Positions 31,198 to 32,546 of a DNA stretch of 64,000 nucleotides are shown here, piece by piece. The position numbers and the translations under genes were made by a program. The notes under the pieces were generated by a model. The model had not been told where the DNA came from. It ran no database searches and saw nothing but the letters and a program-made list of their open reading frames with translations. The stretch is taken from NCBI GenBank assembly GCA_016791385.1, contig JAEUMR010000047.1, positions 62,001 through 126,000 on the forward strand, in the 5' to 3' direction. Positions within the stretch are counted from its first letter, which is position 1. Every line of letters begins with the position of its first letter. The stretch comes from Hyphomonadaceae bacterium (GTDB lineage: Bacteria; Pseudomonadota; Alphaproteobacteria; Caulobacterales; Aquidulcibacteraceae).

Positions 31198-31237
31198 GGG
31201 TGATTAGCTCAGTTGGTAGAGCAGCTGACTCTTAATC
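31198..31237 (+). pseudogene. tRNA-Lys 5'-half fragment (left attachment-site copy)
   Basis: Forty bases identical to the first 40 bases of the intact tRNA-Lys at 32471, from the acceptor strand through the anticodon CTT and ending in CTTAATC. After that the two sequences diverge completely. Identity stopping in the anticodon loop/stem is the expected outcome of site-specific recombination by a tyrosine integrase at a tRNA gene. This copy cannot make a tRNA. Confidence 0.85.
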
Positions 31238-31366
31238 GCCGAGCAAGGTGCATTAGGCCACTGATTTGGCTGACTAATGTGCGACTTGATCGGCTAGATT
31301 CGACCCGAGCAATTTCAATGACTTGCAAGCGCGGTCGCACGCTCACCTAATCCTCGATATCGCCCA

Positions 31367-31609
31367 TCAGGGGATAATCGCGCTTTCTAATGTGGCTCGC
31401 ACTGTGGCTGGCAATCGCCCCTCGACGCAGCAAAGCGCTGTCAGTATGGCGCAGCGCCAGGAGGACGAGGCGGCTCTACGGGCATTTAGGTCGTGACGCT
31501 CGATCAACGCCCTCAGGGTGCCGAGCGAAAGAGTCACCTGCGCTTCGTTCGGGCGTTCGCTGTTCGCGAGCATTCTGGCGATTGCTAGTCCTAGGTGCTC
31601 ATCTGACAT
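31367..31609 (-). CDS. Small island protein, unknown function
   Basis: 80 residues from the ATG at 31609, which overlaps the end of the repressor gene by 11 bases, suggesting coupled translation. The sequence is MSDEHLGLAIARMLANS followed by a helical, Arg/Ala-rich remainder with no recognised domain and a central Cys pair in LTALCCVEG. It may be an accessory protein of the island. As it has no homologue I can name and is short, it might not be expressed. Confidence 0.4.
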   Translation of the reverse strand: MSDEHLGLAIARMLANSERPNEAQVTLSLGTLRALIERHDLNARRAASSSWRCAILTALCCVEGRLPATVRATLESAIIP

Positions 31610-32246
31610 GCGGGTGCTCGCCGGCTTGAAAGGACCCGAGCTTCGGTATCGCGATGACTTTCCCGACGGTTGCAGTTCCTTCCGTGGTGATCCAGTCATC
31701 GTGTGTGGTCTCTAGGCGCTCTTCGACCAGCCAGGAACGACCATCGCGAATTCTATAGCGTCGAAGGTGGGCACCGTTGCCAAACGCAAAAACACCAATA
31801 TCCCAGTCGCTGAGGGTCTTCTGACAATAGTCAATCACGATCACCGAACCTGTGGGCAGCGTTCGTTCCAGGGAGGCGTCGGCAACCTCAAACGCGACCA
31901 GTGTATCGGAGCCCATGTCTGGAACGATGATGTGGTCGCGGCCACGCATCATCCGCGACTTCTCGCCCCCCATCGCAAACAATCCCGCCGCGAACCAAGG
32001 GAGAAGCGGCGCGGTAGCGACCCGCGCATCCAGCAGTCCCACACGCGTCAGGAGTTCTAAATCCGGAACCCCAAGCCTTGCGGCTACGATGGGGGTCATC
32101 CACGGCTGCCACGGCTGCTCGCCATTCACAATTCGACTTATAGAGGCCCGGTCGCGGCCCAGGTCTCTCGCTAGTGACGCGATGCTCGACCCGCTTTCAG
32201 TCAGCTTGCTCTGTATCCACTTTGTGTCGATCTTGGGCGCGCCCAT
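31599..32246 (-). CDS. Phage-type transcriptional repressor (HTH plus S24/LexA-like domain)
   Basis: 215 residues from the ATG at 32246, seven bases after AAGGA; a GTG at 32285 is less likely. Seen: an N-terminal XRE-type helix-turn-helix with SIASLARDLGRDRASISRIVNGEQ, and a C-terminal S24-like fold with VADASLERTLPTGSVIVID, where Ser fits the catalytic serine of GDSM-type motifs, followed by DIGVFAFGNGAHLRRYR. The catalytic Lys position of self-cleaving LexA/CI proteins reads Arg here, so auto-cleavage is doubtful. It presumably controls the island's own genes; its promoter would be in 32247-32470. Confidence 0.75.
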   Translation of the reverse strand: MGAPKIDTKWIQSKLTESGSSIASLARDLGRDRASISRIVNGEQPWQPWMTPIVAARLGVPDLELLTRVGLLDARVATAPLLPWFAAGLFAMGGEKSRMMRGRDHIIVPDMGSDTLVAFEVADASLERTLPTGSVIVIDYCQKTLSDWDIGVFAFGNGAHLRRYRIRDGRSWLVEERLETTHDDWITTEGTATVGKVIAIPKLGSFQAGEHPHVR

Positions 32247-32391
32247 TGCCTGTTCCTTCTCTCCTGGTGCGCGAGTTTCGCTCACGCATCGGGCGAAATT
32301 TGGACACGCTTGTCGCGCGCTTAGCGAGCGCTACTTATGCTTAGCGGGTTCAATTGAGTCCTTGCATGATCGGCGACCTTCGTTAGAACGC

Positions 32392-32429
32392 GAGTCGCAC
32401 GGTCGGGTCGCACAGTGAGTCGCACGGTC
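32392..32429. repeat. Tandem GTCGCAC repeats at the right end of the island
   Basis: GAGTCGCACGGTC occurs at 32392-32404 and 32417-32429, with the variant GGGTCGCACAGT between them, giving three copies at 12-13 base spacing. Near the left end GGTCGCAC occurs at 31333-31340 and its inverse GTGCGAC at 31279-31285. Repeats on both sides of a tRNA-integrated segment look like arm-type integrase binding sites. The remaining DNA in 32247-32470 holds no other gene. Confidence 0.5.
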
Positions 32430-32470
32430 TCACTTCGTTCTGCGTGCAACGCCTTTAAAATCAAAGGCTT

Positions 32471-32546
32471 GGGTGATTAGCTCAGTTGGTAGAGCAGCTG
32501 ACTCTTAATCAGCGGGTCACAGGTTCGAATCCTGTATCACCCACCA
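32471..32546 (+). tRNA. tRNA-Lys (CTT)
   Basis: A complete cloverleaf: acceptor GGGTGAT pairs with ATCACCC, the D-loop has AGCTCAGTTGGTAGAGC, the anticodon loop carries CTT within CTCTTAA, the T-arm contains GGTTCGAATCC, and CCA is encoded. The first 40 bases are duplicated at 31198, so this copy is a reconstructed tRNA at an integration site. The upstream promoter therefore lies in island DNA. Confidence 0.97.

Follow-up and report, generated by a model that had tools for sequence, protein, structure and literature searches.

The window (the whole 64-kb stretch of DNA that was analysed) contains a single tRNA gene, identified by ARAGORN as tRNA-Lys(CTT) at 32471-32546 on the forward strand (Rfam tRNA, 76.2 bits). 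Its first 40 bases are duplicated upstream in the same orientation at 31198-31237 (+), where all 40 match 32471-32510; an exact repeat of this length is far beyond chance. The spacing from repeat to repeat is 1,273 bp, and the DNA between them (31238-32470) measures 1,233 bp, with a G+C content of 58.5% compared with 65.9% in the window. Identity stops at tRNA position 40, on the 3' side of the anticodon stem. The anticodon loop lies at 31229-31235 in the displaced half and at 32502-32508 in the full gene, and a hairpin (GCCTTT/AAAGGC) was read from the sequence directly 5' of the full gene, at 32451-32468 (+).

Insertion in tRNA-Lys and its two genes

The comparison of congener loci covered 23 of the 24 matched by NnrU. 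The order GGDEF protein, autotransporter, tRNA-Lys, NnrU, Hpt and thioesterase is complete in several of them and partial in most others. Two congeners, G009 and G021, have an empty site, with tRNA-Lys in the orientation and gene order of the window and nothing inserted. The gene stands 85 bp (G009) or 61 bp (G021) past the last matched autotransporter codon, and NnrU begins 52 and 19 bp after it, respectively. A model of the window's empty site, made by joining the flanks, matches G009 along both flanks of the tRNA; against G021, the alignment hardly extends beyond the tRNA and promoter region. Because the empty site is seen in two congeners and G009 aligns with the joined flanks, the 1,233-bp stretch is, on sequence grounds, an insertion in tRNA-Lys, and the displaced half, with its exact repeat and its flank aligned to G009, is taken as attL. 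A preliminary description had reported the 40-base duplication, the coordinates of the full gene and an integrated island, all of which agree with these results. Among the relatives searched, none carries both tRNA copies with other DNA or no DNA between them, and fixed junction patterns returned no 5' fragment independent of the island in 60 family and 398 order genomes. Across species of the genus, the tRNA-Lys unit with its promoter is found inverted between the same flanking genes (L040 and L058 compared with L041, L044, L052 and L057); in the last four loci the distance from autotransporter to tRNA is 33-204 bp.

The island holds two reading frames, both on the reverse strand. A CI-like repressor (phrog_4, E 1.9e-12) occupies 31599-32246, with 215 aa from ATG or 228 aa from a GTG at 32285; its matches to HTH_31 and Peptidase_S24 both lie below the Pfam cut-offs. 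The small ORF at 31367-31609 encodes 80 aa and belongs to no family in PHROGs, NCBIfam or PADLOC. The preliminary description had listed a repressor and a small protein and no integrase. This gene content stands, and the start of the small ORF is corrected from 31699 to 31609: the longer 110-aa reading has no Pfam family, and the ATG at 31609, which overlaps the repressor stop by 11 bases, was preferred. Third-position G+C (GC3) is 0.67 in the repressor and 0.66 in the 80-aa ORF, compared with 0.81-0.85 in six host genes.

Self-cleaving S24 repressors of the CI/LexA type have a Ser-Lys dyad. When the repressor was aligned with nine class relatives, the nucleophilic serine was invariant, and the dyad lysine, with the dyad columns assigned by our own reading, was Arg in the window and Lys in all nine. 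Since Arg replaces the catalytic Lys, self-cleavage is not expected, and the repressor probably cannot cleave itself in an SOS response. Close relatives of it were absent from viral contigs, phages and plasmids, as well as from 29 genus relatives. Partial matches occurred in 3 of 31 other non-own genomes (E 2.8e-8 to 7.7e-4), and matches at E <=1e-5 in 13 of 384 other class genomes, each at most 41% identical over part of the protein. The island DNA matched no plasmid and has no second copy in its own assembly (2.65 Mb, 87 contigs, 83% complete). In the same assembly, the 18-base core AGCAGCTGACTCTTAATC with up to two mismatches occurs at two sites only, both of them the tRNA-Lys copies, so that no other tRNA-Lys(CTT) gene was seen there.

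Crossover position and source of the 5' half

When the 23 loci were searched by blastn with tRNA-Lys, 21 had a full-length match. In two of these 21 (G006, locus L054, and G018, locus L056), unforced blastn also returned a displaced 45-bp piece comprising positions 32-76. The window fragment (positions 1-40) and these two fragments overlap at the anticodon loop. Since the window fragment ends at position 40, the crossover lies within that loop or next to it; if one site is used, the exchange would fall within positions 32-40, that is, the anticodon loop CTCTTAA and two further bases. This interval fits the established 7-base overlap of tyrosine recombinases, which a review on archaeal integrases also gives (PMC8371274). 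Insertion at the anticodon region with replacement of the 5' half is well supported, and the crossover lies where the preliminary description had put it, with the repeat ending at position 40 and the congener 3' fragments beginning at 32.

To compare upstream regions, the 90 bp 5' of tRNA-Lys were taken from the 21 of 23 loci having the core sequence, and a two-box promoter matrix was built from the 12 of these 21 where a simple pattern matched. All 21 congener regions score 9.3-21.1 bits, values that are not independent for the 12 matrix loci. The region before the displaced half contains CTAGACG, 16 bp and CTACATG at 31134-31163 (+) and scores 14.4 bits, and none of 500 shuffles was as good. 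The region before the full gene scores 1.7 bits, and 430 of 500 shuffles were as good. These scores place the ancestral promoter before the dead half. Because the genus-type promoter stands at the left fragment and not at the full gene, the conclusion that the island, not the chromosome, supplied the new 5' half and upstream region is well supported. The full gene (attR) is thus a rebuilt one, with positions 1-40 derived from the island and a chromosomal 3' half. Of the earlier proposal that the element gave both the 5' half and the promoter, the part concerning the 5' half and upstream region is thus retained. A consensus promoter scan 5' of the rebuilt gene found none, so its present promoter is only inferred; transcription would presumably start within the island. 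The old tRNA promoter now points through the stranded half into the island (31134-31700), on the strand antisense to the small ORF and to the last part of the repressor gene.

The available text of the Islander survey counts 159 of 3,919 islands with a 5' fragment (PMC4383910), which bears out the earlier remark that this is the less common orientation. According to the same archaeal integrase review, as far as its text was available, rebuilt bacterial tRNA genes keep their original promoter with very few exceptions (PMC8371274).

Islands at the same gene and the search for an integrase

Islands also split tRNA-Lys in the two congeners with displaced pieces, with 3' fragments from position 32: one of 2.2 kb in G006 (L054:10378-12543) and one of 3.0 kb in G018 (L056:10435-13480). 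Four tblastn queries gave no integrase match at E 0.01 in either, and neither has a PADLOC match. The two main proteins of the G006 island have Sel1, zinc-ribbon and DUF805 matches in Pfam; the two of the G018 island have no Pfam match. In G023 (L061), tRNA-Lys is followed by Hpt after 64 bp and the downstream sequence matches G018, and judged from these sequences it looks like the empty counterpart of that site. At their right ends, the two islands resemble each other for about 60 bp (local score 36, compared with a maximum of 26 in 200 shuffles); otherwise only short weak matches were found, and the cargo differs. When right ends were compared in 28 pairs, L054-L056 and L248-L249 exceeded the near-top of the shuffles, and L248-L252 did so marginally (20; shuffle maximum 21).

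The anticodon-stem core of tRNA-Lys can be written GCTGA-N7-TCAGC. Copies with other 7-base centres lie inside these two islands, at L054:10609, L056:10709 and L056:11926, which makes 3 in their 5.2 kb compared with 1 in the other 554 kb (26 tRNA-Lys genes excepted), a count made post hoc. In addition, a weak blastn match in the G006 island (30 bases at 87%) is an inverted anticodon-stem-like core site. The window island has no ends, cargo or interior GCTGA-N7-TCAGC sites in common with the G006 and G018 islands, and its polarity is opposite.

The hairpin CCTTGAAAAATAAGG occurs in the G006 and G018 islands, at the right end of each, and is absent from the window. It was rejected as an island signature, being present in 11 of 60 family genomes (the reversed control gave 1 match), six of which share a chromosomal site. 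This is one conserved place in the genus genomes G005, G045, G019, G009, G014 and G002 (L257-L262; the hairpin is also found at L255 and L256), and in the three of the six that were inspected it follows what we take to be a xerC-like gene.

A displaced tRNA-Lys 3' fragment preceded by a non-A base was found in 8 of 398 order genomes, with a pattern that misses fragments having A at position 31. In four genomes from other genera of the order (G200, G317, G096 and G312), the full tRNA-Lys lies 13.2-17.2 kb from the displaced fragment (L248, L249, L251 and L252); fragments are also present in L247 and L250. Next to the 3' fragment, G312 has an integrase-like gene (PF00589 below cut-off), as does G271 (arm-binding domain only); in G317 such a gene lies inside the island, and G200 has a tblastn match; with four queries, none was recognised in the G096 island. 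G271 and G078 have no full tRNA-Lys within the stretch examined.

Patterns that find only fragments identical through position 40 and stopping at 41 detected the 5' junction of the window in 1 of 60 family genomes and in 1 of 398 genomes of the order, both hits being the window itself. Two further patterns also returned zeros, but these weigh little, since the patterns do not allow C at position 43 and would miss even the junction of the window. With the first patterns, genome contigs gave 3 matches, namely two whole variant tRNAs and one Clostridia contig-end fragment, and viral contigs gave none. The Clostridia fragment, in a MAG at L078:50-76 (-), is a tRNA-Lys 5' fragment broken after 40 bases, 50 bases from the contig end, with its break point fixed by the pattern. 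In nine other congener gaps, no decayed 3' fragment scored above its own shuffles. The larger relative with an integrase, or the same island elsewhere, that the preliminary description envisaged was not found in the genomes searched, and no parent element emerged from them.

Within the window island, Pfam (main ORFs) and PHROGs recognised no integrase, and tblastn with four integrases yielded matches of E 0.08 at best. Its own genome has seven integrase matches: two are XerC/XerD-like, three are short and on one contig, and two are beside other sites. Read by eye, one of these last two (L081:8561-10250) adjoins what we take to be a non-Lys 3' tRNA fragment near a contig end, and the other (L080:9120-10690) presumably the 3' end of guaA. 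None of the seven was supported as a helper.

The island has five copies of the motif GTCGCAC, as many as the other 62.8 kb of the window together. None of 2,000 first-order simulations of the island reached five copies, a post hoc figure for a motif chosen after it had been seen; several sequence tests, including the core-site counts above, were likewise chosen after inspection of the sequence. An inverted copy at 31279-31285 (-) and a direct copy at 31334-31340 (+) are some 42 and 97 bp away from the left core, and three tandem units of about 13 bp are located at the right end (32391-32428, +). By analogy, the repeats may be arm-type integrase sites; operators are equally possible. As proof of an integrase they were discarded: triple repeats also turn up in various settings among viral contigs, 46 of which contain them, and the reversed motif gave 90. 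ORFs were listed for 18 of the 46 contigs and proteins scanned from 14. There, the viral repeats lie within an initiator or DnaD-like gene (L120, L123), 81-86 bp past a DnaB-like helicase gene (L101, L134), inside an endolysin-like gene (L100), next to a sigma-factor gene (L107) or 270 bp from an integrase gene (L114). Those in L120, L123, L101, L134 and L114 are possibly replication origins or arm sites.

Origin of the island and relation to known elements

On the likeliest account, the island, which is non-autonomous by its gene content, entered tRNA-Lys(CTT) at the anticodon loop through a tyrosine integrase acting in trans; we regard the chances for and against this as about balanced. The integrase, whose type and action in trans we infer, would have been supplied from elsewhere. 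In a circular form, attP would be tRNA-Lys positions 1-40, flanked on either side by GTCGCAC repeats that may be arm sites. Strand exchange within CTCTTAA would strand the host 5' half and its promoter at the left (attL); at the right (attR), the element's 5' half and upstream region would be joined to the host 3' half, so that the rebuilt gene would depend on island DNA for its expression. Together with the small ORF coupled to it, the putative repressor would serve as a module for lysogeny or immunity, and the element would presumably be able to excise. Its ends and both ORFs look intact, and the ORFs are alike in GC3 (0.66-0.67). Mobilisation in trans is plausible from the two islands with no recognisable integrase at the same gene in congeners.

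A somewhat less probable account is that a prophage or island of greater size and of the 5'-fragment type integrated by means of its own integrase, then lost most of its genes in place and is now immobile. A phage-type repressor without any other phage gene agrees with such a loss, as does the absence of the catalytic lysine. In other genera of the order, this tRNA position is occupied by islands of 13.2-17.2 kb, some of which carry integrase-like genes, and elements that keep both attachment sites and have no recognisable integration or transfer genes (CIMEs) are described as products of such decay in the available text of PMC5704250. Against this, no gene fragments were recognised in the island, where the four integrase queries were not significant; both ORFs look whole, both ends are kept with all 40 bases of the repeat, and no larger relative with the same repressor was found among the 29 genus relatives. 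We lean slightly towards arrival of a hitchhiker at its present size over shrinkage in place, as its ends and both of its genes appear whole and islands with no recognisable integrase stand at this gene in two congeners. The earlier reading of a minimal or satellite element rather than a decayed one goes further than these results: trans-mobilisation is plausible, deletion in place may also account for the island, and the searches turned up no helper, no larger relative and no second copy. Very improbable in our view is an origin that was not site-specific, either homologous exchange through the tRNA half, for which 40 bp of identity could in principle suffice, or an assembly mis-join at the repeat, as the fragmented and incomplete assembly might allow. 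The break falls at the anticodon loop, where the 3' fragments of two congeners start in unforced blastn, and six further order genomes have such fragments, though there the pattern fixed the start. Moreover, the locus lies inside a 199-kb contig with flanks that match the G009 empty site, and a mis-join would require joining words of less than 40 bases at two places.

A broader and doubtful possibility is that the genus keeps integrase-less cassettes of 1-3 kb, with exchangeable cargo, that use an integrase from other elements or the host to move into and out of the anticodon loop of tRNA-Lys(CTT). These cassettes would have two polarities, supplying either the 3' half or, as in the window, the 5' half and upstream region. 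The internal core copies of the G006 and G018 islands would look, on this reading, as if cassettes had been joined at variant core sites. The place of the window island in such a family is the weakest link, as it has no internal core site. If the cassette reading is true, a tRNA gene would be the attachment site of a cassette system that is discarded by finders needing an integrase or 2 kb.

Several known systems share features with the island. Like the islands of the Islander database, as described in the text available (PMC4383910), it combines an intact tRNA gene with an upstream 5' fragment in the same orientation and an anticodon-centred crossover; unlike them, it has no integrase gene and, at 1,273 bp from repeat to repeat, falls short of their 2 to 200 kb, so that both filters would reject it. 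A search that needs an integrase and at least 2 kb is therefore blind to such elements. Judging from the two others at the same gene in congeners, small integrase-less tRNA islands may not be rare; as a described family, none was noticed in the literature searched, part of which was available as excerpts.

With CIMEs, the island shares its retained attL and attR and the absence of recognisable integration and transfer genes. In the available text of PMC5704250, CIMEs stem from ICEs or IMEs; the only recognisable gene of the window island is a phage-type repressor, and no parent was found. Like phage satellites such as PICMIs, it is small and integrated, has a regulator and presumably relies on a helper. 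However, PICMIs encode an integrase, AlpA and a primase, none of which was seen in its two proteins, and excision of known satellites requires satellite-encoded integrases, according to the text available (PMC10803314). If the window island is mobile, a tRNA-targeting element can be reduced to an attachment site and a repressor and still capture the front half and upstream region of its target, here a tRNA-Lys gene found only once in the available assembly.

Two further systems have parallels with the island, again as far as their accounts were available. The pTN3-like archaeal integrases also use an attB at the tRNA 5' half, and the rebuilt tRNA loses its old promoter; they are archaeal and their integrase gene is split by integration, unlike the window island (PMC8371274). 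In tRNA-dependent lysogeny, tRNA function after integration likewise depends on phage DNA, but there the phage brings a complete tRNA gene and no rebuilding of the host gene takes place (PMC10865867), whereas in the window the gene is rebuilt at attR. Reliance of the host tRNA on foreign upstream DNA could help to retain the element.
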